The position numbers were made by a program, and so were the translations under genes. From assembly GCA_946546925.1 (NCBI GenBank), contig CAMNOS010000008.1:1-40680 (forward strand): 40,680 bases of DNA, read 5' to 3'. The stretch is from an uncultured Butyrivibrio sp. (GTDB taxonomy: Bacteria > Bacillota > Clostridia > Lachnospirales > Lachnospiraceae). Below the pieces are notes generated by a model. It was not told the DNA's origin, ran no database searches, and saw only the letters and a list, made by a program, of their open reading frames with translations. Numbering within the stretch: the first letter of the stretch is position 1; every line of letters begins with the position of its first letter. Of this stretch, positions 14,458-28,941 are shown piece after piece.

Positions 14458-15405
14458 ATGAAATACATCATTAAAAAGCTTGGAATGATGATAGCTACTT
14501 TACTGGTTGTTTCTATCTGCGTGTTCCTCGCTTTTAGTATTATTCCGGGAGATCCGGCACTGAGGCTTCTGGGAACGGAAGCATCCCCTGAGCTGCTTGC
14601 ACAGACGAGACAGCAGATGGGACTCACAGACCCTCTGCCGGTAAGGTACCTACGGTGGTTTCTGGGCTTTATAAGGGGAGATTTTGGGGTGTCATACAAC
14701 TACAAAACTCCGGTTGCGGGGATGATAGTCAGCAAGATTCCAATAACCCTGACAATGGCAGCTATGGCCTTTCTCATGACGATACTTATATCCATCCCGC
14801 TTGGGATATTTACGGCCAAGCATGAAGGGAGCTGGCTTGACAGAGGCATTATTGTTATTAACCAGATTATAATGGCGGTGCCTCCTTTTTTTTCAGGTAT
14901 TCTTATAACCTTTATTTTCGGAATGATCTTAAGGCTCTTTACACCGGGCGGTTTTGTGAACTACACCGCGGATGTGGGCAGGTTTGTCAGATATCTCTTT
15001 TTTCCGTCTGTTGCAATAGCGCTGCCCAAGATAGCGATGACAGTCAGGATGCTGAGGGGAAGCCTTATCGATGAGGCTGCCAAGGATTACTCCAGGACAG
15101 CCTACAGCAGAGGCAATAACACCAACGGAGTGCTGTACAGGCACATTCTGAAAAATGCCCTCATCCCGGTAATTACCTTTCTGGGAATGACACTGGCTGA
15201 TATGGTGGCCGGAAGTATCGTGATAGAGCAGGTATTCAGCATCCCCGGCATAAGCAGGATACTGCTGACAAGTATCAGCAACAGAGATTACCCGGTGGTT
15301 GAAGCTATCATCATGGGAATAGCGACCATAGTCATCGTCGTGAATTTCCTTGTTGATGTAATATACAGAATTATTGATCCGAGGATAGGATTTGAGGATG
15401 AGTAA
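14458..15405 (+). CDS. ABC importer 1 permease (OppB/DppB/NikB type)
   Basis: This 315-residue integral membrane permease has six predicted helices. The N-terminal FSIIPGDPALRLLG and QMGLTDPLPVRYLRW are typical of the OppB/DppB/NikB subfamily. The EAA loop that contacts the ATPase (about DEAAKDYSRTAYSRGN) is followed by VIEQVFSIPGISR and NRDYPVV. GAGGT lies eight bases before the ATG. It overlaps the start of the second permease gene by eight bases. Confidence 0.92.
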   Translation: MKYIIKKLGMMIATLLVVSICVFLAFSIIPGDPALRLLGTEASPELLAQTRQQMGLTDPLPVRYLRWFLGFIRGDFGVSYNYKTPVAGMIVSKIPITLTMAAMAFLMTILISIPLGIFTAKHEGSWLDRGIIVINQIIMAVPPFFSGILITFIFGMILRLFTPGGFVNYTADVGRFVRYLFFPSVAIALPKIAMTVRMLRGSLIDEAAKDYSRTAYSRGNNTNGVLYRHILKNALIPVITFLGMTLADMVAGSIVIEQVFSIPGISRILLTSISNRDYPVVEAIIMGIATIVIVVNFLVDVIYRIIDPRIGFEDE

Positions 15406-16222
15406 AGTTGGAAAAAAACTCAAAAAGAATATGAGAGACAATCCGTACCTGGCGGCGGGACTGGTTATTACCGGCATGGTTCTTCTGTTGATCATTGTGG
15501 GACTCTTCTGGACACCCTATGAGCCTACGGCAATGAATGCCAAAGAGAAGCTTTCCGGGATATCACTTCGCCATCCAATGGGGACAGACAATATGGGCAG
15601 GGACGTGCTAAGCCGCGTTATGTACGGAAGCAGGATAACTCTCTTTATTGCAATGGGAACGGTGGCCATAGGTGCGTTTGCAGGGACCATAATCGGCGCC
15701 GTGACTGGTTATTTCGGAGGCATGCTCGATGAGGTGATGATGAGGATAATAGACGCTATGTTCGCTTTCCCGAGTATTCTTCTTGCACTTGTCATCATCA
15801 GTATCTTCGGAACCGGCTGGGTGCAGCTGCTCGTATCACTCGGAATAGCCTTTGTGCCCAGTTTTGCCAGGATTGTGAGGGGAGAAGTTCTAAGGTGCAG
15901 AAACATGGACTATGTCGAGAATGCAAGGCTTCAGGGTGTATCTGACCTTAGAATGATATTTGTGCATATACTTCCAAATATTAAGGGCGTGCTGGCATCG
16001 GCGATACTTATCGGTTTTAACAACGCGGTGCTTGCAGAGGCAGGCCTGTCTTACCTTGGGGTGGGATCGCAGCCGCCATATGCAAGCCTTGGAAGGATGC
16101 TGTCGGATGCGCAGCAGTACATGTTCACAACGCCCAGCTATGTGCTCTGTCCGGGCATAGTGATAGTTCTCATGGTACTCGGCTTTGCATTTCTCGGAGA
16201 GGGGATCAGCAGATGGAAATAA
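15398..16222 (+). CDS. ABC importer 1 permease (OppC/DppC/NikC type)
   Basis: This 274-residue partner permease has the characteristic HPMGTDNMGRDVLSR motif after the first membrane helix, the EAA-type loop around MDYVENARLQG, and AEAGLSYLGVG near the end. The ATG at 15398, with AGGA seven bases upstream, is preferred over the in-frame TTG at 15392. Its start overlaps the previous gene and its end overlaps the ATPase gene by ten bases, so the permeases and ATPase are translationally coupled. Confidence 0.92.
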   Translation: MSKVGKKLKKNMRDNPYLAAGLVITGMVLLLIIVGLFWTPYEPTAMNAKEKLSGISLRHPMGTDNMGRDVLSRVMYGSRITLFIAMGTVAIGAFAGTIIGAVTGYFGGMLDEVMMRIIDAMFAFPSILLALVIISIFGTGWVQLLVSLGIAFVPSFARIVRGEVLRCRNMDYVENARLQGVSDLRMIFVHILPNIKGVLASAILIGFNNAVLAEAGLSYLGVGSQPPYASLGRMLSDAQQYMFTTPSYVLCPGIVIVLMVLGFAFLGEGISRWK

Positions 16223-17022
16223 TTCTGGATGTAACCGATCTTCATATTGAGTTTCACGACCATGACCAGCCTGAGGTCGCAGTTGAGGATTTTGACCTCA
16301 TGCTTGGAAAGGGCGAGATTGTCGGTATAGTGGGTGAGTCAGGCTCCGGCAAGAGCATGAGTGCACTTGCCATAGCGGGACTCCTTAACAGAAAGAGCCT
16401 TACAAAGAGCGGAAGGATCATGTTTGACGGACAGGACCTTCTTACCTGTGACAGGAAGACTTTAAGGTCCTATCAGGGAGATGAGATATCCATTATCTTT
16501 CAGGAACCGATGACGAGCCTTAATCCGGTCAAAAGAATCGGCTGGCAGGTGGAAGAGCCTCTTTACATCCACCATCCGGAGATTGACAGGAAGGCAAGAA
16601 AAGAGATGGCGATAGCAGCCCTTTTGTCGGTCGGACTCGAAAACGCCGTGGACGTGTACTATATGTACCCCCACGAACTGTCTGGTGGAATGAGGCAGAG
16701 AGTCATGATCGCAGCGGCGATGATAGGCAATCCCAAGATTCTTATCGCAGATGAGCCTACAACCGCACTTGATGTTACTGTTCAGGCGCAGATAGTGGAG
16801 CTTCTCAAAAAACTGAACAGGGAGAGGGGAACTTCCATCATTTTCATATCCCACGACCTGAGCCTTGTAAACCAGCTGTGCCAGAGAGTAATTGTCATGC
16901 AGCAGGGCAATATTGTGGAATCGGGCAGGACTTCGGAAGTCTTTAAGAGACCGAGAAACCCGTATACCAAGAAGCTTATCGCGGCAATACCCAAGATCGA
17001 CCTTTCGCGCAATGAGGAATGA
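16213..17022 (+). CDS. ABC importer 1 ATPase (OppD/DppD/NikD type)
   Basis: This cytoplasmic ATPase of 269 residues has Walker A GESGSGKS (41-48), the Q-loop IIFQEPMTSLNP, signature LSGGMRQR, Walker [13 protein letters not shown] and H-loop ISHD. It lacks most of the C-terminal oligopeptide-transporter extension (about 60 residues, with a Cys cluster) seen in full OppD proteins, and ends soon after RNPYTKKLIAAIP. The length is normal for NikD-like ATPases. GAGGGG lies upstream, inside the permease gene. Confidence 0.93.
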   Translation: MEIILDVTDLHIEFHDHDQPEVAVEDFDLMLGKGEIVGIVGESGSGKSMSALAIAGLLNRKSLTKSGRIMFDGQDLLTCDRKTLRSYQGDEISIIFQEPMTSLNPVKRIGWQVEEPLYIHHPEIDRKARKEMAIAALLSVGLENAVDVYYMYPHELSGGMRQRVMIAAAMIGNPKILIADEPTTALDVTVQAQIVELLKKLNRERGTSIIFISHDLSLVNQLCQRVIVMQQGNIVESGRTSEVFKRPRNPYTKKLIAAIPKIDLSRNEE

Positions 17023-17024
17023 AC

Positions 17025-17777
17025 ATGAGTGATAACGAGGTTTTAAGAGTAACTGATCTCAACGTCTTTTATAAGAACAGGAAGAGAAAACTCTTTTCAA
17101 ACAATAAGAAAATACAGGCCCTCTTTGATGTGAACGTCGCGGTGGAGGAAGGGGAGGTGCTTGCGATCGCAGGCGAGTCCGGAAGCGGTAAATCGACTCT
17201 TGCAAGGGCAATCGTTGGGATAAACAGGGATTATACCGGAGAAATCTGGCAGAAATATGCTGATCCGCAGATGGTCTTTCAGGATCCATACAGTTCCCTG
17301 AACCCTTCGAAAAAAGTGCGCTGGCTTCTGGAAGAACCTTTAAGGGTCGACAGAACGAGGAAGTGGTCGCCTCTCGAGATGGACAAGCGCGTATATGAGA
17401 TACTGGAAGAAGTAGAACTGCCTGTCGCTCTTTTGGACAGATATCCCTCGCAGCTTTCGGGAGGACAGAGGCAGAGGGTCTGCATAGGCATGGCTCTCAT
17501 GAAATCCCCAAAGCTTCTTATCGCTGACGAACCGGTATCCGCCCTGGATGTGACGATTCAGGCTCAGATCCTTGAACTTTTAGAGAACCTCCACAAGAAG
17601 CACGGGATATCAATTATTTTCATATCTCATGATCTCAGGGTTGTATACAAGATAAGCGACCATGTACTCATCATGAAGGACGGAAGAGTGGTTGAGTATG
17701 GAGAGACCAGGCAGCTGTACAGGTCTCCGCAGGCTCATTACACGAAGAGTCTTCTGAAGGCTGCCGGAATTGTGTAA
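17025..17777 (+). CDS. ABC importer 1 ATPase (OppF/DppF/NikE type)
   Basis: This is the second ATPase, 250 residues, with Walker [10 protein letters not shown] (50-58), Q-loop [12 protein letters not shown], signature LSGGQRQR and Walker [13 protein letters not shown]. An Arg/Lys-rich insertion (RKRKLFSNNKK) in the N-terminal strands is characteristic of the OppF side. Two ATGs are in frame. 17025 is preferred, since GAGGA is six bases before it but abuts the ATG at 17019. Like its partner it lacks the C-terminal extension. It is the last gene of the operon; no clear terminator follows before the promoter at 17813. Confidence 0.92.
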   Translation: MSDNEVLRVTDLNVFYKNRKRKLFSNNKKIQALFDVNVAVEEGEVLAIAGESGSGKSTLARAIVGINRDYTGEIWQKYADPQMVFQDPYSSLNPSKKVRWLLEEPLRVDRTRKWSPLEMDKRVYEILEEVELPVALLDRYPSQLSGGQRQRVCIGMALMKSPKLLIADEPVSALDVTIQAQILELLENLHKKHGISIIFISHDLRVVYKISDHVLIMKDGRVVEYGETRQLYRSPQAHYTKSLLKAAGIV

Positions 17778-17917: not shown

Positions 17918-18328
17918 ATGGCTATGAATGTGAACGGCTACATGCCCGGATTTAACGCATATAATATTCCCTCTGTCAAGGACAACTCACAGATCATCCC
18001 TCCGGTGGAAGACAAGGTAAGACAGGAAAACGCGCCGGCACGGGAGGATAAGAAACAGGATTTTGATCTCTCTGTAGAGGTACCTGCAAGAGAGAACGCT
18101 TCAATCGAGAATGTGGCAATATCCTTTGGACAGTATGACAGTTCATCAATTGACCTCTTCGGAGACATAGGACTTGCATCAAGAGATATGAAACAGGCAA
18201 TATCAGGAATGCAGAAGGATCATATCCTTCACGAGTATCAGTACTTTGTAGGAAAAGACCTGGCAGGAAGAGAGAACCAGAACATCATAGCGGGAAACTC
18301 TGACGGAATTGTTCTTAAACTCAATTGA
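17918..18328 (+). CDS. Small conserved-looking protein of unknown function
   Basis: This gene encodes a 136-residue soluble protein that I do not recognise. It has no signal peptide, membrane segment or Cys motif. The first half is rich in Pro, Asn, Glu and Lys and probably disordered (PAREDKKQ, PARENAS). The second half is more ordered, with FGQYDSSSIDLFG and a helix SRDMKQAISGMQKDHILHEYQYFVG. The start has an excellent AAGGAGGA seven bases upstream, and the gene has its own sigma-A-type promoter and strong terminator, so it is surely expressed. The short modular layout resembles small partner or regulatory proteins, but no function can be assigned. Confidence 0.8.
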   Translation: MAMNVNGYMPGFNAYNIPSVKDNSQIIPPVEDKVRQENAPAREDKKQDFDLSVEVPARENASIENVAISFGQYDSSSIDLFGDIGLASRDMKQAISGMQKDHILHEYQYFVGKDLAGRENQNIIAGNSDGIVLKLN

Positions 18329-18359: not shown

Positions 18360-18394
18360 GGCCTAAGAAAGAATGATCTTTCTTAGGCCTTTTT
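18360..18394 (+). terminator. Intrinsic terminator after the small protein gene
   Basis: A perfect 13-bp stem, GGCCTAAGAAAGA (18360-18372) with TCTTTCTTAGGCC (18377-18389), has an ATGA loop and is followed by five T. The AT-rich stretch 18395-18512 shows nothing else recognisable. Confidence 0.92.
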
Positions 18395-18528: not shown

Positions 18529-21147
18529 ATGTGCGCACATACTAAGACAAACGGAAAAGTTAATATGCTCCACGGAGTTGTTTCGGCTGCCATTGTAGCC
18601 CTCATATTTATTGCTGTGCTTGTCATAGAGGGCATTACTCCTTTCGGCGACGGAACATTTCTTATGTTTGACTTAAAGAGGCAGTATGTGGACTATTATG
18701 CCTATTATAAGACGGTTCTCTCAGGAGAGAACAATGTGCGCTACTCTTTTTCAACAACTCTTGGCTCAGGCACTATAGGCTTTTTTGCCTACTATCTTAC
18801 AAGCCCGTTTCTGGCGCTTTTATCACTTTTTGACAGCAGACATATCTGTACCGGGATAAGCATTGTCATAGGGCTCAAGCTCATTCTGGCAGCCTTTCTG
18901 ATGGATTCTTTTCTTCAGCGCTACATAGGCAGATCTGACAGGATAATTCCTTTTGATGCGAAATCTGTCTCAGTGTATCTGGGGGCTGTCTCCTGGGCTT
19001 TTTCGGGCTTTTTGTTCGCACACAGCATGAATATGATGTGGATGGATGTAGTGATTCTGCTTCCGGTCTATATACTTTGTCTTGAACTTCTTCTTGCGCA
19101 GGACCGCAAGGTTCCCTTTATTGTCGTTCTCTGGGGGATGCTGGTACTCAATTACTACATAACCTATCAGGTAATCCTGTTTACAGTACTCTGGACCATA
19201 ATGAGGCTTTTTGTCTCAGAATACGAAAAGCCCGTGAGGCTGATACTGCGAGTCGCCTGCTGCGGAGTGGTATCCGGTGCCATGTCAGCGGTTCTTCTTC
19301 TTCCGACAGGCATTGAGCTTATGAACAGCCCCAAGGATATAACCAAACTGGGACTTGAGCTTACAGGCAAGAACCTGACACCTGTTGACGTCTTTTCCAA
19401 GCTTCCGACCTTTGCCTATGACTACATCGAAGCGAGGTTTGGATATCCGCAGATTTATTGCGGAATGCTGATGGTATTTCTACTGCTGATGTATTTTATG
19501 AGCAGAAGGATTCCGCTTCGGGAGAGGATAGGGATGCTGGCCATAATTGTCATCATGCTTGCATCCTTCTGTCTGGATATCCTGAACATTATCTGGCACG
19601 CAGGAATGGAACCGTCAGGTCATCCTTACAGACAGGCATATCTGTTCGTGTTCGTGATGATACTCTGTGGTGTCAGGGCGCTCTCAGACCTTGAGAGCGG
19701 GATAACTCCGGTCAATATGGGAATATCTTTTGCCTTGATGGCAGTGACACTCTACCTGATAAGACTTGGCAGATACGACCATGTCTCTGACTATACGATA
19801 CTTGCAGGATATGCGTTTGTCATTTTCTACGCAGGTGTTTTTATAATTTTCCTCGCAAGTACGAGGAGAAAGAAGAAACTGATCCCGTTTATCTTTTGCC
19901 TTGTCTTTTTATCCAATGCAGCGGACCTTACAGCCAATGCTGTTTACACCTACCATTATCAGGCGATGCTCAGCGAAAAGGCCGGCGAATACTCACTTAC
20001 GGTGTCGAATAACCTTGAAGCTGTCAATTTTGTCAAAAAGAAAGACAAGTCTTTTTACAGAATGGAGAACCTAAAGCCCAGACAGCAGAATGATGCCCTT
20101 GCCTACAACTATAACGGAATAACCCACTACAGCTCTGCGGGAATGATCTATGTCAGGTATTTTCTGCAGAGGCTGGGATTTAACGATGACAATCTATATA
20201 CGAGCTACGGCAGTGACAACACTGAGACCGCGGACAGCATCCTTGGCCTGAAGTACCATATCTCAGATGACGGGGCTCTGACCCAATACAATTACGAGCA
20301 GATTTTTGACTCTGCTGTGGATGTATATGAGAATCCATATCCGATGTCTGTTGCGGTACAGACCAGCGGATTTGACCTTGCGGGAATATCGGATCCTGCT
20401 GACAATAAAGCCGACAGCAATCTGTCCCATGTCCCGGCGCTGGATGCTTTTGCACTGCAGGAGGAGATATATGCAAGACTCCTCGGAAGGCAGGTTCATA
20501 TATTTGACGATGCCGCTGTGACTAAGTCAGAGCTAATGAGTGAGAACGAAAAGTATTTCTACGATTTTGAGGTTACATCTGAAAGGGACGGCGAGATGTA
20601 CATGTACATCGACGGTCTTATCGGAGAAGCTCTGAATCTGTCCCTATTTGTAGACGATGAATTCCTGACATCCTACGGCAATGCCTCCTGTACCAAGGTT
20701 TTGAAGCTTGGATACAGGAACAGGGGAGACAAGCTCAGGGTCCGTCTGCAGGGCGAAAACAGGGACGATAATTTCGGAAAGGCAAGATTTGTAACCGAGA
20801 ACGTGGATGAACTTGAGAGAGCTTATAAAGAGCTTGAAAGCCGCTTTTGCAATGTGACCAAAAAGTCATCTTCGAACATTCTTATTAAGACCGGTGACTG
20901 CGACGGAGTGTTCCTGACCGTGCCTTTTGAAGAGGGATGGACGGTCATGGTGGATGGCAGGGCCACTGAGCCCGTTGCCATATATGACTCCCTTACTTAT
21001 ATTCCGATTGCAAACAGCGCATCTTCTCACACGATCGATATGACCTTTATGCCTGTGGGAATATGGGTCGGGGTTGTACTGTCGCTCCTTGGCCTTTTGA
21101 TTCTTGTTTATATTGCGCTTTCCGGCAAGAATGGGATTTTGTTATGA
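18529..21147 (+). CDS. YfhO-family polytopic membrane protein (GT-C-like)
   Basis: This 872-residue protein has about 12 membrane helices in the first 470 residues, a long extracellular C-terminal region (about 480-840) and one last helix (about 846-866). After the first helix the outer loop carries GDGTFLMFDLKRQYVDYY, with acidic residues D41 and D48 as expected for a GT-C-type active site. YfhO proteins in Bacillus and Listeria take part in glycosylating lipoteichoic acid, using undecaprenyl-linked sugars; the same here is inference. The ATG at 18529 lacks a Shine-Dalgarno sequence; the ATG at 18565 is the alternative. Its stop overlaps the CotH start (ATGA), making it the first gene of a coupled cassette. 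Confidence 0.85.
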   Translation: MCAHTKTNGKVNMLHGVVSAAIVALIFIAVLVIEGITPFGDGTFLMFDLKRQYVDYYAYYKTVLSGENNVRYSFSTTLGSGTIGFFAYYLTSPFLALLSLFDSRHICTGISIVIGLKLILAAFLMDSFLQRYIGRSDRIIPFDAKSVSVYLGAVSWAFSGFLFAHSMNMMWMDVVILLPVYILCLELLLAQDRKVPFIVVLWGMLVLNYYITYQVILFTVLWTIMRLFVSEYEKPVRLILRVACCGVVSGAMSAVLLLPTGIELMNSPKDITKLGLELTGKNLTPVDVFSKLPTFAYDYIEARFGYPQIYCGMLMVFLLLMYFMSRRIPLRERIGMLAIIVIMLASFCLDILNIIWHAGMEPSGHPYRQAYLFVFVMILCGVRALSDLESGITPVNMGISFALMAVTLYLIRLGRYDHVSDYTILAGYAFVIFYAGVFIIFLASTRRKKKLIPFIFCLVFLSNAADLTANAVYTYHYQAMLSEKAGEYSLTVSNNLEAVNFVKKKDKSFYRMENLKPRQQNDALAYNYNGITHYSSAGMIYVRYFLQRLGFNDDNLYTSYGSDNTETADSILGLKYHISDDGALTQYNYEQIFDSAVDVYENPYPMSVAVQTSGFDLAGISDPADNKADSNLSHVPALDAFALQEEIYARLLGRQVHIFDDAAVTKSELMSENEKYFYDFEVTSERDGEMYMYIDGLIGEALNLSLFVDDEFLTSYGNASCTKVLKLGYRNRGDKLRVRLQGENRDDNFGKARFVTENVDELERAYKELESRFCNVTKKSSSNILIKTGDCDGVFLTVPFEEGWTVMVDGRATEPVAIYDSLTYIPIANSASSHTIDMTFMPVGIWVGVVLSLLGLLILVYIALSGKNGILL

Positions 21148-22673
21148 AAAAGAATCACCACCTTCTTATCAAGCTTGCAGTTATTTTTTTCTGCGTGCTT
21201 TCGGTAGCTTTTTTGACGGCTAAGAGCATTGACAGAACGGGCTTGGATGAAACTTATTTTATGTACGCTACCTGCGACGGAATGAAGATAAATGTCTTTT
21301 CGTCAGATGGGGACTATTATCTCTTTCTGCCGGCTTTTGCCAAGGAGGAGGATCTTCATTACTCCTATGAGGCTTTGAAACACGATATTAAGGTATTAAA
21401 GTCCGACAGCCTTCCTGCGATATTCATTTCTACCAATTCAGGCTCAATTGACGGCATACTTGCCGACAAGGAATACAAGGAAGCCGGTAAGATGACTGTG
21501 ATCGGACCGGATGGTTTTAAGCACATCTCTGTCGGTCTTGAATACATGAAGGGAAGAGGTAACTACTCCTGGAACAACTGGGACAAAAAGCCCTTCAAGA
21601 TAAAGCTCAACAGGAGTGCATCGATACTGGGACTTGGTGAGGGAGAGGACTTTTGCCTTCTCGCCAATGCTTCGGATCCTACACTTATAAGGAATGACCT
21701 GGCAAGGCGACTGGAAATGGCAGTCGGAATTCCATACGCATCTGTCGGCAGATTTACTGATCTATATGTCAACGGGGATTACATGGGTAACTACTATCTT
21801 TGCCCGAGCATAGAGATTGGTGCTGACAGGATCGACATCACCGACATGGATGAGGTCCAGGACAAGGTCATAAAAAGACTCAACAGAGATGCGATAAGCG
21901 TCTATGAAACTCCGACTCTGCGCGGGTGGAATCTGCCTGAGTCTGTGGATGATATTACCGGCGGATACCTTGTTGAGAGGGAATTCGGCGACAGGTATGA
22001 CCTGGAATACGGCAGTTTCAATAATGGCTTTGTCACAGCAAGGGGAGAACACTATATTGTCTTATCTCCACGGTACTGTACCGTATCTGAGATAAACTAT
22101 ATATCAGATTTTTTCCAGAAAGCTGAGGATGAGATATTTGGCGGGGGTAACTTTGCCGAATATATCGACACGGAGTCTTTTGTCAGAAGATATCTTGTGG
22201 AAGAGGTCCTGAAAAATTATGACGGCGGTGTGAGCAGTGCCTACTATTACAAGGACAAAGACGCAGTTGACGGGCATATCTATGCCGGACCCGGATGGGA
22301 TTTTGACATGAGCCTGGGCAATTATCTGGACTGGATGGAGTATGCATCTGAGGATGCCACCGGGATAACAAAGCTATATCTGTCCGAGCACTCAAGCATA
22401 GTCTTCAGGCGCCTCATCGGGGACGATGACTTTGACAGGATCGTGAGGGATTCTTTTACGACAGATGTCCTTCCTTTTTTTGAAGAGGTTCTTGATACGG
22501 GGCTGGATAAGTATGAAAAAGAGCTTTCGGCGTCGGCTGCAATGGACAGCATACGCTGGAGCGACATGTACCGTGAAAAAGGCTATACTACCAATGACAG
22601 CGCGCAGTATAATAACCTGAAAAGCTTTATTGAGGAGAGGCTAGCCTTTCTTCAAGGAGAATGGTCTGACTGA
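21144..22673 (+). CDS. CotH-family atypical kinase, membrane-anchored
   Basis: This 509-residue protein has one N-terminal membrane helix (about 8-25) and an extracellular CotH domain. Visible family motifs are KGRGNYSWNNWDKKPFKIKL (136-155), which includes the nucleotide-binding lysines, NASDPTLIRNDLARRL, GNYYL, and GPGWDFDMSLGN, with D386 and D388 in the metal-binding position. CotH of B. subtilis phosphorylates spore coat proteins; relatives occur widely in non-sporulating bacteria on secreted or surface proteins. Its start overlaps the YfhO stop and its stop overlaps the VTC start. The ATG at 21144 is chosen because an upstream in-frame ATG at 21063 would add 27 non-signal residues inside yfhO. 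Confidence 0.88.
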   Translation: MKKNHHLLIKLAVIFFCVLSVAFLTAKSIDRTGLDETYFMYATCDGMKINVFSSDGDYYLFLPAFAKEEDLHYSYEALKHDIKVLKSDSLPAIFISTNSGSIDGILADKEYKEAGKMTVIGPDGFKHISVGLEYMKGRGNYSWNNWDKKPFKIKLNRSASILGLGEGEDFCLLANASDPTLIRNDLARRLEMAVGIPYASVGRFTDLYVNGDYMGNYYLCPSIEIGADRIDITDMDEVQDKVIKRLNRDAISVYETPTLRGWNLPESVDDITGGYLVEREFGDRYDLEYGSFNNGFVTARGEHYIVLSPRYCTVSEINYISDFFQKAEDEIFGGGNFAEYIDTESFVRRYLVEEVLKNYDGGVSSAYYYKDKDAVDGHIYAGPGWDFDMSLGNYLDWMEYASEDATGITKLYLSEHSSIVFRRLIGDDDFDRIVRDSFTTDVLPFFEEVLDTGLDKYEKELSASAAMDSIRWSDMYREKGYTTNDSAQYNNLKSFIEERLAFLQGEWSD

Positions 22674-23392
22674 TGTATTACAGAGTTGAAGATAAATATA
22701 TTATCTACGAAGATCAAATAGCATATCTGAGGATGCGCCTTGAGCAGGTAATGGAGAAAGACTCCCACGGAGAAGGGGGCGGATACCTCATAAGGAGCAT
22801 CTACTTCGATGATATGTTGGGAAGCGCTCTTTTTGAGAACGAGTCAGGTGTAGATGAGCGCAGCAAATTCAGGATAAGGTCATACGACCTTGATGACTCC
22901 TTCATAAGACTTGAGGAAAAGAGTAAAAAGAGCGGTTTTACCCACAAAGATTCTGCAGTAATCGGAAAGAACTGCGTGCTTGAACTTATCAAAAATGCCG
23001 GGACGGCGGGGAGCGCTGCTGCTTCAAAGTGCCTTCTTTCTGAGGATGGTTTTCTTTGCAAAAAGCTCTATACATATATGAACACAAGGCTTATGTATCC
23101 GGTGAACATCGTGGAATACAAGAGGGAAGCCTTCGTTGAGAGAGCCGGCAATGTAAGGATAACCTTTGACCGCAATATCAGTGCATCGGATGATGTTGAG
23201 CGCTTTTTTGAAAGGGATATTCATGGGACTCCTGTCATGGAGAAGGGAGCCCATATTCTGGAAGTCAAGTATGATGAATTCCTTCCGGATCATATAAGGA
23301 AAATAATTGATACAGGGTCTCTTAGCAGAACGGCTTTTTCCAAATACACCATGGCCGCAAAATGGAGAGAACAGAACGGAGAGTGCTTATGA
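22673..23392 (+). CDS. VTC-domain polyphosphate polymerase family protein
   Basis: This 239-residue cytoplasmic protein consists of one VTC domain, the triphosphate-tunnel fold that in yeast Vtc4 makes polyphosphate from ATP. The basic and acidic residues that line the tunnel can be followed along the sequence: R4 and K8, KFRIR (R67, R69), LEEKSKKSG (E82, K83), VEYKR (K150, R151), DRN (R167), ILEVKYDE (E197, K199) and FSKY (K224). All expected positions look intact, so it is probably catalytic. It overlaps both neighbours by one to four bases (TGATG and ATGA). Whether the product is polyphosphate, and where it goes, is unknown. Confidence 0.87.
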   Translation: MYYRVEDKYIIYEDQIAYLRMRLEQVMEKDSHGEGGGYLIRSIYFDDMLGSALFENESGVDERSKFRIRSYDLDDSFIRLEEKSKKSGFTHKDSAVIGKNCVLELIKNAGTAGSAAASKCLLSEDGFLCKKLYTYMNTRLMYPVNIVEYKREAFVERAGNVRITFDRNISASDDVERFFERDIHGTPVMEKGAHILEVKYDEFLPDHIRKIIDTGSLSRTAFSKYTMAAKWREQNGECL

Positions 23393-24063
23393 GTTTTCAG
23401 GATGTGATCAAAAAATCAGTGATGGAGGGGTTTACAGCCAATGACATACCTCTGGCGCAGATGGTATCAATTCTTGCGATCGCCTTTCTGATAGGCGTCT
23501 ATATCTTTTTTATATACAGACTTGTCAACAGGTCGGCTCTTTATAACAGGAGCTTTCACGTGGCCATGGCGATGATATCCGTGGTAACTGCAGGGATAAT
23601 CGTTGCAATGCAGTCGAGCATAGTCATTTCTCTGGGTATGGTCGGTGCTCTGTCCATAGTCAGGTTCAGAACGGCCATCAAGGACACCATGGATCTTCTG
23701 TTTCTGTTCTGGTCCATCGGAGAGGGGATAATCTGCGGCGCCGGGCTCTTTGAGCTTGCAGTGATCGTGGCTCTTGTGGTTACAGCGGGTATCTTCATCC
23801 TCGAACTTGTTCCCATAAGCAAAAAGCCCTACGTCCTTATTGTCAATTCTTCCGATACGGGAGCTGAGGAGGAGATACTTAAGCGGGTATCAGAGAACAG
23901 CAGATCCTATAAGGTAAAGTCAAGGAATCTTAAAAAGACCGGGCTCGATATGATCATTGAGGTTTCCACCAGATCGGAAAAAGAGCTTATGGAAGCTCTG
24001 AATTCGATTGAAAAGGTAGAGAACATTTCACTTCTTACCCATGAGGGAGAGCTTAGAATATAG
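23389..24063 (+). CDS. DUF4956 membrane protein
   Basis: This 224-residue protein has about four membrane helices in residues 24-141 and a soluble C-terminal domain of about 80 residues with a ferredoxin-like strand-helix pattern (KPYVLIVNSSD, LDMIIEVS, ISLLTHEGEL). The family signature SLGMVGALSIVRFRTAIKD (81-99) followed by DLLFLFWSIGEGIICGAG is complete. DUF4956 resembles the MgtC-type membrane fold. In genomes it often accompanies VTC-domain and CotH proteins (from memory, not checked here). Function is unknown; a membrane channel or scaffold for the VTC product is a reasonable guess. It is the last gene of the cassette, followed by a terminator. Confidence 0.88.
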   Translation: MSFQDVIKKSVMEGFTANDIPLAQMVSILAIAFLIGVYIFFIYRLVNRSALYNRSFHVAMAMISVVTAGIIVAMQSSIVISLGMVGALSIVRFRTAIKDTMDLLFLFWSIGEGIICGAGLFELAVIVALVVTAGIFILELVPISKKPYVLIVNSSDTGAEEEILKRVSENSRSYKVKSRNLKKTGLDMIIEVSTRSEKELMEALNSIEKVENISLLTHEGELRI

Positions 24064-24082: not shown

Positions 24083-24114
24083 ACCACCTGTGTACTTGCA
24101 GGTGGTGCTTTTTT
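24083..24114 (+). terminator. Intrinsic terminator after the DUF4956 gene
   Basis: ACCACCTG (24083-24090) pairs with CAGGTGGT (24099-24106), and GCTTTTTT follows. Confidence 0.88.
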
Positions 24115-24852: not shown

Positions 24853-24903
24853 GGGGATGATATATGCAGTCAGTTTTATCATTAAGAAATGGGTGGAGAA
24901 GCT

Positions 24904-25833
24904 ATGAATACTAAGACATTGATGTACATTGTCAAGAGAGTCTTTCTGGCAATTGTCACGATCTGGGTGGTTATCACGGTAACTTTCTTTGTAATGCACG
25001 CAGTTCCCGGCGGTCCTTTCACCGGTGAGAAGGCTGTGAGCGAATCTGTTATGGCTGCTATGGAGGCTAAATACGGTCTGGACAAGCCTCTTGGAGTGCA
25101 GTATCTGACATATCTCGGAGATATCGTAACTAAATTTGATTTTGGTCCCTCGCTTAAACAGAAGGGCAGAAGTGTCAATGATATTATCTTTGATGGAATG
25201 AAGACGTCAGCCAAGCTCGGTATCATCGCTGCGGTCATTGCGCTTATATCCGGCGTTATCCTTGGTTCCGTTGCTGCACTTCGCAGGAACAAACTCATCG
25301 ACAGGATAATAATGATCATCACAACAGCGTTTGTGTCAATGCCTTCATTTATCATGGGTTCTCTTCTTCTCATAGCATTTGCGATCAACCTTAAGTGGTT
25401 CCCTGCTAACGGTGCATCCAAGAACGGACTGGTACTTCCTGTAATAACGCTTTCACTGTATCCGATGGCTTATATAACAAGGCTCACAAGATCTTCAATG
25501 CTTGAGGTCCTCGGACAGGACTACATCAGAACAGCCAAGGCCAAGGGAGTTTCGGGAGTTAAGATCATCTTCGGACATGCGCTTAAGAATTCACTTATTC
25601 CGGTTATCACGTATTTCGGTCCCATGCTTGCAGGTATCGTAACAGGATCTCTTGTTGTAGAGCAGATCTTTGCGGTTCCCGGCATCGGAAGAAGCTTTGT
25701 AAACAGCATCACCGGTCGTGATTATCCCCTTGTTATGGGCACAACAATCGTACTTGCAGCCCTGATCGTTATCATGAACCTTATAGGCGACATTATGTAT
25801 AAGGTTGTTGACCCAAGGATCACACTGGAATAA
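24904..25833 (+). CDS. oppB: Oligopeptide ABC importer permease OppB
   Basis: This 309-residue, six-helix permease has an OppB-type N-terminus (VKRVFLAIVTIWVVITVTFF, VPGGPFTGEK). The coupling loop is QDYIRTAKAKGV, and FGPMLAGIVTGSLVVEQIF, PGIGRSF and TGRDYPLVMG follow. The ATG at 24904 has GGTGGAG five bases before it; an upstream in-frame start at 24889 would overlap that site. It is the first gene of a second importer operon in the order B-C-D-F-A. It is closer to classical OppB than the permease at 14458. Confidence 0.93.
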   Translation: MNTKTLMYIVKRVFLAIVTIWVVITVTFFVMHAVPGGPFTGEKAVSESVMAAMEAKYGLDKPLGVQYLTYLGDIVTKFDFGPSLKQKGRSVNDIIFDGMKTSAKLGIIAAVIALISGVILGSVAALRRNKLIDRIIMIITTAFVSMPSFIMGSLLLIAFAINLKWFPANGASKNGLVLPVITLSLYPMAYITRLTRSSMLEVLGQDYIRTAKAKGVSGVKIIFGHALKNSLIPVITYFGPMLAGIVTGSLVVEQIFAVPGIGRSFVNSITGRDYPLVMGTTIVLAALIVIMNLIGDIMYKVVDPRITLE

Positions 25834-25880
25834 TTACCACAGTCTGTTAATCATTATTTACATATATTAGGAGAACGAAA

Positions 25881-26939
25881 ATGGATATCAGTAAGTTAAG
25901 CGCACAGGTCAACATGGATGATTTCATTCCTGCTACCGATGCGGAAAAAGAATATATGGTGCAGATGCGTCCTTCATCAACTTTCTTTAAGGACTCAGTC
26001 AAGAGACTTCTTAAGAACAAAGTTGCGACTGTCTGCTTCTTTATAATAATCATCATCGCTCTTGCAGCGATCTTTGTTCCGATGTTCTGGCCATATTCCT
26101 ACGACCAGATGCTGGGTATGACTCCCGGTAAGCCCGTAGATAACAGCTTCAAGGACCTTAGGCCCTTTGAATACGGCAAGTCAGAGATAACAAGAATGGC
26201 CAACGGAGAGTCAGTTGTTCCTCATATCTTCGGAACGGATTCCCAGGGAAGAGATTACTTCATCCGTGTGGTTTACGGAACACGTATTTCACTTGCAGTC
26301 GGCTTTTTTGCCAGCCTCATTGTTCTTGCAATCGGTATGACAATCGGATCGATCGCAGGATATGCCGGAGGAGCCGTTGACCTTGTGATAATGCGTATAG
26401 TTGATATCATATATTCGCTTCCGGATATGCTCATGGTAATTCTTCTTTCGTCAGTCCTGAAGGTTGTCATGGAAGGAGCTCTGGACGGAACTGTCCTTGC
26501 CAAGATAGGTTCCAATATCATAAGTCTTTTCATAGTCTTTGGTGTGCTGTACTGGGTATCAATGGCAAGACTTATAAGGGGACAGATCCTCTCCTTAAGA
26601 GAGCAGGAGTACGTACTTGCTGCAGAAGCAGCCGGTGCGAAGGGAAGATGGATCATTTTGAAGCATCTCATTCCCAACTGCTTCTCAGTTATCATTATCT
26701 CAACAGCGCTTCAGATTCCCAGTGCCATTTTCACTGAGAGTTACCTCTCATTCCTTGGACTTGGTGTAAACGCACCCATGCCTTCACTGGGGTCCCTTGC
26801 TTCAGATGCGCTGAACGGTATTACATCATATCCTTACAGACTGATAATTCCTGCGATCGTCATCTCACTTATAGTTCTTTCCCTCAACCTGTTTGGAGAC
26901 GGACTTAGAGATGCATTTGATCCCAAGCTCGATACCTAA
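25881..26939 (+). CDS. oppC: Oligopeptide ABC importer permease OppC
   Basis: This 352-residue partner permease is longer than the 274-residue relative in operon 1. It has a cytoplasmic N-terminus of about 45 residues and a large outer loop after the first helix (about 75-120), as in true OppC. The motifs HIFGTDSQGRDYFIRVVYG, the coupling loop QEYVLAAEAAGAKG and FTESYLSFLGLGV are present. AGGAGA lies seven bases before the ATG. Confidence 0.93.
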   Translation: MDISKLSAQVNMDDFIPATDAEKEYMVQMRPSSTFFKDSVKRLLKNKVATVCFFIIIIIALAAIFVPMFWPYSYDQMLGMTPGKPVDNSFKDLRPFEYGKSEITRMANGESVVPHIFGTDSQGRDYFIRVVYGTRISLAVGFFASLIVLAIGMTIGSIAGYAGGAVDLVIMRIVDIIYSLPDMLMVILLSSVLKVVMEGALDGTVLAKIGSNIISLFIVFGVLYWVSMARLIRGQILSLREQEYVLAAEAAGAKGRWIILKHLIPNCFSVIIISTALQIPSAIFTESYLSFLGLGVNAPMPSLGSLASDALNGITSYPYRLIIPAIVISLIVLSLNLFGDGLRDAFDPKLDT

Positions 26940-26962
26940 AGTAATAGTAAGGAGATACAGAG

Positions 26963-27949
26963 ATGAATTTATTAGAAGTAAGAGATCTGCGGACCTCATT
27001 CTTTACAGATGCCGGTGAGGTCAAGGCAGTCAATGGAATATCATTTAACCTGGACAGAGGTAAGGTCCTGGGTATCGTTGGAGAGTCGGGAAGCGGCAAG
27101 TCTGTTACTGCTTACTCAATAATGCAGATACTTGCCGGAACCGGAAGAATTGTTTCAGGTTCCATCAAGCTCGACGGACAGGAGCTTGTGGGAGCCGGTG
27201 AGAAGGTGATGAAGACCGTCAGAGGCAACAAGGTGTCAATCATTTTCCAGGACCCCATGACAAGTCTTAATCCCACCTATACAATAGGTCATCAGCTGAT
27301 GGAGGCTATACTTCTCCACACTGACAGGAATAAGGAACAGGCCAGGGAGCGAGCTATTGAGATGTTAAAGCTCGTTAATGTAAATGAGCCTGAAAAGAGA
27401 ATGAACCAGTACCCTCATGAGTTCTCAGGCGGTATGAGACAGAGGGTTATGATCGCCATGGCTCTTGCCTGCGAACCGGATATCCTTATCGCAGATGAGC
27501 CAACGACAGCGCTTGATGTTACCATTCAGGCACAGATACTTGACCTTATGAAGTCACTTCAGCAGGAACTTGGAATGGCCATCATCATGATCACCCATGA
27601 CCTTGGAGTTGTGGCTCAGATGTGTGATGAAGTCATAGTTATGTATGCCGGTTCTATCTGTGAACAGGGCACGGCTGATGAAATTTTCTACAATCCCTGC
27701 CATGAGTATACTAAGGGACTTTTGAGGTCCATTCCTACAGAGGGCAAAGAGGGCAAGAAGCTTGAGCCTATAAGCGGTACGCCTATCGACCTTCTGAACA
27801 TGCCAAAGGGATGTCCTTTTGCACCAAGATGTGACAATGCCATGAAGATCTGCCTTCGTGAGAGAGCAGAGCGCATGCAGATCAATGATGATCATGCTGC
27901 CGGCTGCTGGATGAATGTCAAAAAGCTGATGGAAGGCGGTGAGAAGTAA
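26963..27949 (+). CDS. oppD: Oligopeptide ABC importer ATPase OppD
   Basis: This 328-residue ATPase has Walker A GESGSGKS (40-47), Q-loop [12 protein letters not shown], signature FSGGMRQR, Walker [13 protein letters not shown] and H-loop ITHD. Unlike the ATPases of operon 1, it has the full C-terminal oligopeptide extension with the Cys-containing motif [15 protein letters not shown], seen in Opp/Dpp ATPases where it can hold an iron-sulfur cluster. AAGGAGAT precedes the ATG. The stop overlaps the oppF start (TAATG). Confidence 0.95.
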
Positions 27950-28941
27950 TGAGCGAAGCACTTACCAGGACAAACCTTGTTGATATTAAACACCTAAAAG
28001 AATATTTCAATGTCAATGTCGGATTTTTCAAGACCAAGCCGCTAAAGGCTGTTGACGATGTCTCTTTTACCATTAAAAAAGGTGAGACTCTTGGTCTTGT
28101 AGGAGAGTCAGGCTGCGGCAAGACAACCGTAGGCCGCACGATCCTCAACCTCTACAAGCCAACTGCCGGAGAAATCTGGTACGACGGCAAACTGATCAAG
28201 ACCAAGGAAGACATCAAGGAATTCCGCAAGAAGGCCACAATGGTTTTTCAGGATCCCTATTCTTCACTGAACCCAAGGATGACTGTATCAGATATTATCG
28301 CTGAGCCTCTTGACGTGCATGAACTCTACACGAGCAAGCAGGAGAGGAGAGACCGTATCCTTGAGCTTATGGGATATGTCGGACTTAACTCTGAGCATGC
28401 TTCAAGATATGCCCATGAATTCTCAGGCGGACAGAGACAGCGTATCGGAATCGCAAGAAGCCTTGCGGTCAATCCTGAATTCATCGTCTGCGACGAGCCT
28501 GTATCTGCTCTTGACGTATCAATCCAGGCTCAGGTCATCAACATGTTTGACGAGCTTCAGGACAGGCTGGGGCTTACATATCTCTTTATCGCCCATGACC
28601 TTCTGGTTGTAAGGCACATAAGTAACAGAATCGCTGTTATGTACCTTGGCAAGATGGTTGAGCTGGCTGATGCGGATGAGATATACAATCATCCATTGCA
28701 CCCATACAGCAAGTCCCTTCTTTCAGCTGTACCTGTGCCTGATCCCAAGGTCGCAAGGGCCAATAAGAGGATTGTTCTATCCGGAGATATACCGAGCCCT
28801 CTCAATGCACCTTCAGGATGTCCGTTCAGAACAAGATGTCAGTATGCTAAGCCTGAGTGTGCAGAGCACATGCCCGAATTCAAGGAAGTTTCAAAGGGAC
28901 ATTTTGTAGCCTGCCACAGGACGGAAGAGATCAACGACTGA
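27949..28941 (+). CDS. oppF: Oligopeptide ABC importer ATPase OppF
   Basis: This 330-residue ATPase has the OppF-type N-terminus ([23 protein letters not shown]), Walker [10 protein letters not shown]-loop [12 protein letters not shown], signature FSGGQRQR and Walker [13 protein letters not shown]. The C-terminal extension [15 protein letters not shown] carries the Cys motif. It is translationally coupled to oppD. A 121-base gap follows, holding the promoter and operator of the binding-protein gene. Confidence 0.95.

Follow-up and report, generated by a model that had tools for sequence, protein, structure and literature searches.

A cassette of four overlapping genes

We analyzed a 40,680-nucleotide stretch of DNA (the window; contig CAMNOS010000008.1) from an uncultured Butyrivibrio sp., a rumen bacterium, in which four tightly joined genes on the plus strand encode YfhO-, CotH-, VTC- and DUF4956-family proteins. 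The first gene encodes a YfhO-family membrane protein of 872 amino acids (18529 to 21147; PF09586, E = 1e-140), and the second a CotH-type kinase of 509 amino acids (21144 to 22673; Pfam E = 9.1e-30, supported by fold and catalytic aspartates). They are followed by a 239-amino acid VTC-domain (triphosphate tunnel) protein, a putative polyphosphate polymerase (22673 to 23392; PF09359, E = 3.2e-37), and a 224-amino acid DUF4956 protein, a remote homologue of MgtC (23389 to 24063; Pfam E = 4e-12, with profile alignment and structural model). Successive genes overlap by 4, 1 and 4 bases. The CotH start at 21144 was set by the ATGA overlap, the longest open reading frame (ORF) beginning at 21063; the longest ORF of DUF4956 begins at 23362.

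A sequence scan located a terminator-like hairpin followed by a T-run on the plus strand at 24083 to 24106, the probable end of the transcription unit, and a second plus-strand terminator-like hairpin in the gap that separates YfhO from the ORF before it (18360 to 18389). No sigma-70-like promoter was listed by the scan on the plus strand between 18390 and 18529. Because the genes overlap and are flanked by the two hairpins, they are probably carried on a single transcript. The initial annotation, made from the sequence alone, had named the same four families, which all agree with Pfam, and had noted overlaps at all three junctions, which the measured values bear out; it had further posited a shared promoter and terminator, of which the hairpin was located and the promoter was not, leaving its description of the locus confirmed in part.

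VTC and DUF4956 form a near-constant pair

Matches to the four families were counted per genome in a phylum sample of 348 genomes, which yielded 71 CotH, 70 VTC and 68 DUF4956 rows, split matches being entered as one row each. VTC and DUF4956 were found in exactly the same 59 of the 348 genomes, with no discordant genome. With adjacency defined as the same strand and no more than 1.5 kb apart, 66 of the 70 VTC matches were adjoined by DUF4956. The four others comprised one with CotH sitting between VTC and DUF4956 (G125), one at a contig start whose DUF4956 lies at the start of another contig (G058), and two short or broken copies (G247 and G281). A family sample of 175 genomes, counted at the genome level only and overlapping the phylum sample in at least G000, G131 and G204, contained 128 genomes with both families, six with VTC only (five being weak matches) and one with DUF4956 only. 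Patristic distances of VTC and DUF4956 across 124 pairs correlated with r = 0.938, a value to which shared descent contributes, and the best of the 500 permutations that served as the sole control reached 0.183. Three VTC genes were present in the window's genome (an assembly 80.6% complete), each followed by DUF4956.

The core of the cassette is the VTC and DUF4956 pair and not the foursome, and the pairing is as firm as comparative genomics allows. Co-occurrence, adjacency and mirrored trees strongly support the earlier suggestion that DUF4956 would be the membrane partner of VTC.

Partners of the pair were counted on the same strand within three genes. In the phylum sample, 61 of the 66 adjacent pairs could be recovered by ORF calling; their companions were CotH (36 pairs), Cthe_2159 (16), both (1) or neither (8). 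The 63 pairs of the named set had CotH in 42 cases, both in 4 and neither in 17, and 10 of these 17 had fewer than three called genes before the locus end. The split between CotH and Cthe_2159 required 3 changes on the VTC tree, compared with at least 12 in 200 label shuffles. All six of the tested partners from the Cthe_2159 cluster matched that Pfam family.

Genes neighbouring related loci encode polyprenyl-phosphate sugar transferase, LytR-CpsA-Psr, GT2, GtrA and PMT_2 proteins. Two tandem CotH genes ahead of VTC, followed by a gene run, were observed in seven loci (L121, L125, L131, L138, L148, L149 and L155); by Pfam, the run in L149 consists of GT2, sugar transferase and LytR-CpsA-Psr genes. 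The third pair of the window's genome (L009:8563-10108) had neither CotH nor Cthe_2159 nearby, and its neighbours were an O-antigen-ligase-like gene, which fell under the Pfam cut-off, and two-component-like genes.

The VTC protein resembles the polyphosphate polymerase of yeast

Profile comparison of the VTC protein with the PDB returned Vtc4, Vtc2 and Vtc3 as relatives, plus a weak unrelated row (YEATS4, 0.0038), whereas phmmer with this protein alone found no solved relative. The VTC domain was the only one recognized by Pfam in its 239 amino acids, with no SPX domain and no membrane domain of the eukaryotic kind, and no membrane segment was seen by eye, in agreement with the initial view that it has no anchor of its own. 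Ten residues that match Vtc4 in the alignment are conserved (K8, R67, R69, K83, K92, R151, R162, E197, K199 and K224), covering the basic residues of the tunnel, the metal-site glutamate and the catalytic lysine, so that the tunnel is intact as first claimed, and the positions aligned with the Vtc4 tunnel were invariant or nearly so across the VTC members of the 124 pairs, the set used for all residue conservation. K224, kept in 123 of 124, is the equivalent of the catalytic Lys-458 of Vtc4 (PMC4641920).

According to the same source, hydrolytic tunnel enzymes carry four glutamates at positions that are basic in Vtc4. When the residues of the Arabidopsis hydrolytic enzyme were placed on the window's VTC by motif alignment, three of the four positions proved to be basic in the family, namely R4 (121 of 121 ungapped sequences), K92 and K199 (124 of 124 each), and the fourth, E6, acidic. 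The residue pattern favours a polymerase and does not amount to proof.

The closest relatives were three Butyrivibrio sp. records of metagenome-assembled genomes (MAGs), with 61-68% identity. VTC genes 41-43% identical to the window's, with DUF4956 adjoining, were also seen in six Treponema MAGs (L127, L152, L159, L160, L162 and L167), suggesting transfer from clostridia or binning errors.

DUF4956 is remotely related to MgtC

The DUF4956 protein has five predicted membrane helices (residues 22-139) and a C-terminal ACT-like domain (144-223). Its AlphaFold2 model had a predicted local distance difference test score of 77.6 and a predicted template modelling score of 0.62, and five helices in it were read as membrane helices. 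Alignment with MgtC by hhalign gave a probability of 97.3 and an E-value of 1.8e-11 over 192 columns, covering both the membrane and the ACT parts, and PF02308 matched another DUF4956 protein of the window's genome at 5.6e-5, below the curated cut-off. By these profile comparisons, DUF4956 is a remote relative of MgtC. Foldseek gave no match at E <= 0.001; the rows shown were ACT-like or other ferredoxin-like domains, none of them MgtC, and spanned just the ACT-like part (144-223). The biochemical role of the MgtC family is disputed.

G86, R92, F93, R94 and G113 were present in all 124 DUF4956 proteins, and K98 in 103. The third membrane helix of the model terminates at R92 and R94, and the positive-inside rule would have them face the cytosol. 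The Streptococcus intermedius protein SIR_1592 was described earlier as MgtC plus ACT (PMC12345266).

Anchored CotH kinases often accompany the pair

The window's CotH comprises an N-terminal membrane helix (residues 5-31), a beta-rich region (41-120) and a kinase fold (about 88-509), and both the Pfam match and the fold place it in the CotH kinase family. Fold comparison found a solved relative, whereas phmmer with CotH alone did not. By alignment and spacing, D360 and D386 correspond to the catalytic D228 and D251 of Bacillus subtilis CotH (numbering from PMC7821199); the spacing of 23 residues between the two aspartates in a short-type CotH (L049) equals that from 228 to 251. Among the 59 CotH proteins of at least 430 amino acids, a class drawn by length and not by anchoring, all carried D360 and 58 carried D386. 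The initial naming of the protein as a CotH kinase was correct.

We compared 70 CotH ORFs of the phylum sample, of which 58 had a hydrophobic N-terminal segment, 9 had none and 3 were set aside. A CotH was classed as anchored if its mean hydrophobicity over 17 residues was at least 1.4 at some point no further than 20 residues inside the domain, a rule that is not a signal-peptide predictor. Fragments or frame-broken ORFs were excluded (G309, G057:C21 and G225:C23), as was G160, whose CotH fell under the cut-off and which was likewise omitted from the CotH-VTC Fisher test. A link to VTC within 8 kb was seen for 39 of the 58 anchored CotHs and for none of the 9 unanchored ones; 57 of 58 and 5 of 9, respectively, came from a VTC-bearing genome. 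Short unanchored types (9 of 70 ORFs) thus never stood beside VTC, and the B. subtilis control genome had CotH with no match to VTC or DUF4956. Another control genome, that of Corynebacterium glutamicum, gave matches to CotH, VTC and DUF4956. The window's CotH differs from the spore kinase of B. subtilis and B. cereus in its added N-terminal membrane helix and beta region.

YfhO is a lineage-specific addition

The YfhO match is full-length, covering residues 21-852 of 872 and profile positions 3-835 of 835. We take the protein to belong to the GT-C-like glycosyltransferase class; the nearest NCBIfam models, PgfM1 and PgfM2, were both far under their cut-offs. YfhO occurred in 22 of the 348 phylum genomes, and the window's genome was the only one with a match beside the CotH-VTC-DUF4956 trio. 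The complete run of four genes was conserved in three related loci (L109, L110 and L111), and YfhO-CotH fusions were found in two more (L112 and L113, the latter cut by the contig start). YfhO is a lineage-specific, Butyrivibrio-like addition to the cassette, and we rejected it as a core part. The proposed check of co-occurrence across genomes favoured the VTC-DUF4956 pair and did not support YfhO as a defining member beyond this lineage, the two fusions notwithstanding.

Relation to the Pel locus and other known systems

The trio beside pel genes has been described as a Pel-locus accessory set (PMC7112168 and PMC12345266), which calls for correction of the earlier statement that no pathway known to its author explains the combination. 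PMC12345266 adds that no instance of this arrangement was seen away from the Pel locus. The phylum sample has 36 genomes with the trio, and 19 of them, the window's genome included, were searched for PelG; it was present in 2, one of which (G099) carries PelG directly before a trio, and absent from 17. PelG gave no match in the window's 80.6% complete genome, and the cassette does not lie beside pelDEADAFG. With no PelG found and with neighbours that by eye resemble peptide-type ABC transporter genes, we rejected a Pel-accessory role for the window's genome. The recurring run after CotH-VTC-DUF4956 was likewise rejected as pel genes, Pfam having identified GT2, sugar transferase and LytR-CpsA-Psr genes in L149 and L180. 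The published Pel-accessory trio is widespread in the company of other surface-glycan genes.

In Gram-positive Pel loci, for example that of S. intermedius (SIR_1592-1594), accessory genes of these three families likewise adjoin one another and polysaccharide genes. In the window, YfhO replaces other accessory genes, and the order is YfhO-CotH-VTC-DUF4956 with overlaps. The eukaryotic VTC complex (Vtc1, Vtc3 and Vtc4) shares the residues of the tunnel polymerase domain and the combination of a cytosolic enzyme with a membrane partner, which in the window would be the MgtC-like DUF4956. In Clostridium perfringens NELoc-2, a gene for a small membrane protein comes after each of two VTC genes, and the locus also has CotH and GT2 genes; no YfhO is listed, and the small membrane proteins carry the annotation tubulin/FtsZ GTPase (PMC2879425). 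The Fam20 secretory kinases of animals are also among the closest known systems. Three further reports (PMC6848847, PMC10434189 and PMC8250860), in the parts available, merely name a DUF4956 or CotH gene.

Proposed function and alternative explanations

The explanation that we favour, at a probability of roughly one in three, is that polyphosphate made by VTC and exported by DUF4956 serves CotH outside the cell to phosphorylate a substrate glycosylated by YfhO. VTC would build polyphosphate from adenosine triphosphate (ATP) on the inner side of the membrane; the MgtC-like DUF4956 would receive the chain at its conserved basic motif (RFR, then usually K98) and export it, much as the yeast VTC complex delivers polyphosphate to the vacuole. 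The exterior of the cell normally offers little ATP, and there the anchored CotH would take phosphate from the exported chain and phosphorylate a surface glycan or glycoprotein, which in the window YfhO would make or extend by transferring sugar. Synthesis, export, the donor role and the substrate are the steps that we infer. Synthesis and export by the pair are in our view likely, by homology to the yeast complex, in which synthesis is coupled to translocation (PMC9911596). That CotH would draw on this polymer is the bold step of the scheme, and the association of anchored CotHs with the pair would follow from it. The surface phosphorylation proposed initially agrees with the anchoring of CotH, its intact kinase fold and the glycan-synthesis genes around related loci. 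The earlier interpretation is supported in part.

We know of no obvious phosphate donor for bacterial secreted kinases. A general form of the idea, in which exported polyphosphate powers extracellular phosphorylation, the pair acting as synthase-exporter and anchored CotHs as polyphosphate-dependent glycan or glycoprotein kinases, is a possibility that we rate as less likely than not. If true, it would be a cell-surface phosphate-donor system without direct use of ATP, spread over clostridia and other bacteria in sets in which CotH and Cthe_2159 are exchangeable partners. In a search of open-licence literature, eight papers mentioned both CotH and polyphosphate; the search results and the text consulted contained no suggestion that polyphosphate is a CotH donor, which is not proof of absence. 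The near-constant combination of a polymerase and a membrane protein beside an anchored CotH makes the donor question directly testable, and DUF4956, by homology the MgtC family too, gains a concrete hypothesis, the movement of polyphosphate.

Several observations weigh against this explanation. The published mutants do not clearly support the donor step: in S. intermedius, deletion of DUF4956 raised Pel and deletion of CotH lowered it, and for the VTC gene (SIR_1593) the available text mentions no deletion phenotype (PMC12345266). A simple supply line predicts matching phenotypes, and these mutants therefore speak against it; the same source reports that in one medium either deletion, of DUF4956 or of CotH, reduced aggregation by over half. 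For B. subtilis CotH, whose substrates are spore-coat proteins, the assay used ATP (PMC7821199). The co-occurrence counts carry no correction for phylogeny. CotH was lacking from 13 of the 59 genomes with the pair, so the pair must have another role too. Conversely, 5 of the 93 CotH-bearing family genomes lacked the pair, and G068 of the phylum sample was a further exception; the rule that an anchored CotH goes with the pair is thus strong and not absolute. To our knowledge, MgtC proteins are not known as channels. The fourth discriminating tunnel position of VTC is acidic (E6 in 121 of 121 ungapped sequences).

Three of the five pair-less family genomes were inspected (G367, G427 and G497; G385 and G494 were left out). 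Their CotHs had 595-1949 amino acids and N-termini that were signal-like by eye, and no VTC or DUF4956 was present in the stretches inspected around CotH. The contig of G427 (L207) encodes proteins that were Bacteroidetes-like by eye, possibly contamination.

Among the alternatives, VTC and DUF4956 may make and export polyphosphate that is itself a surface or matrix polymer, on which CotH and Cthe_2159 act or to which they bind, with no use as a donor. The same pairing evidence (59 of 348 genomes, r = 0.938) would apply, and the presence of Cthe_2159, whose Pfam name denotes a carbohydrate-binding family, in place of CotH at 16 of 61 pairs and the 8 of 61 pairs with neither partner within three genes are consistent with it. 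We consider it rather unlikely, and it leaves unexplained why anchored CotHs (39 of 58) and not cytoplasmic ones (0 of 9) stand beside the pair. A regulatory role seems similarly unlikely to us: the MgtC-like DUF4956 would sense a ligand through its ACT-like domain, the phosphate product of VTC would be a signal, the pair would tune polysaccharide synthesis, and CotH would phosphorylate surface proteins with another donor. The homology to MgtC over 192 columns, the ACT-like domain and the opposite Pel changes upon deletion of DUF4956 and CotH (PMC12345266) point in this direction; the scheme requires another extracellular donor, however, and does not account for the invariant R92 and R94 at the end of a membrane helix.

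Improbable by our estimate is a lipid-linked donor, for which VTC, in place of polymerising polyphosphate, would phosphorylate a lipid or sugar carrier and DUF4956 would flip the carrier for CotH or a glycan pathway. The acidic E6, at a position that is neutral in Vtc4, hints that the chemistry may differ, and the lipid-linked glycan genes of related loci would suit such a reaction, but three of the four discriminating positions are polymerase-like and the nearest relatives of known structure are Vtc4, Vtc2 and Vtc3. That the four genes are co-transcribed neighbours with unrelated jobs would fit the occurrence of YfhO beside the trio in one phylum-sample genome alone, and is made very improbable by the VTC-DUF4956 co-occurrence, the four-gene run in three other loci and the two YfhO-CotH fusions.

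Flanking genes in the window

An ORF of 136 amino acids without a Pfam match lies directly upstream of the first hairpin (17918-18328). Genes that by eye resemble permease and ATPase components of peptide-type ABC transporters lie on both sides of the cassette, at 14458-17777 and 24889-28941.

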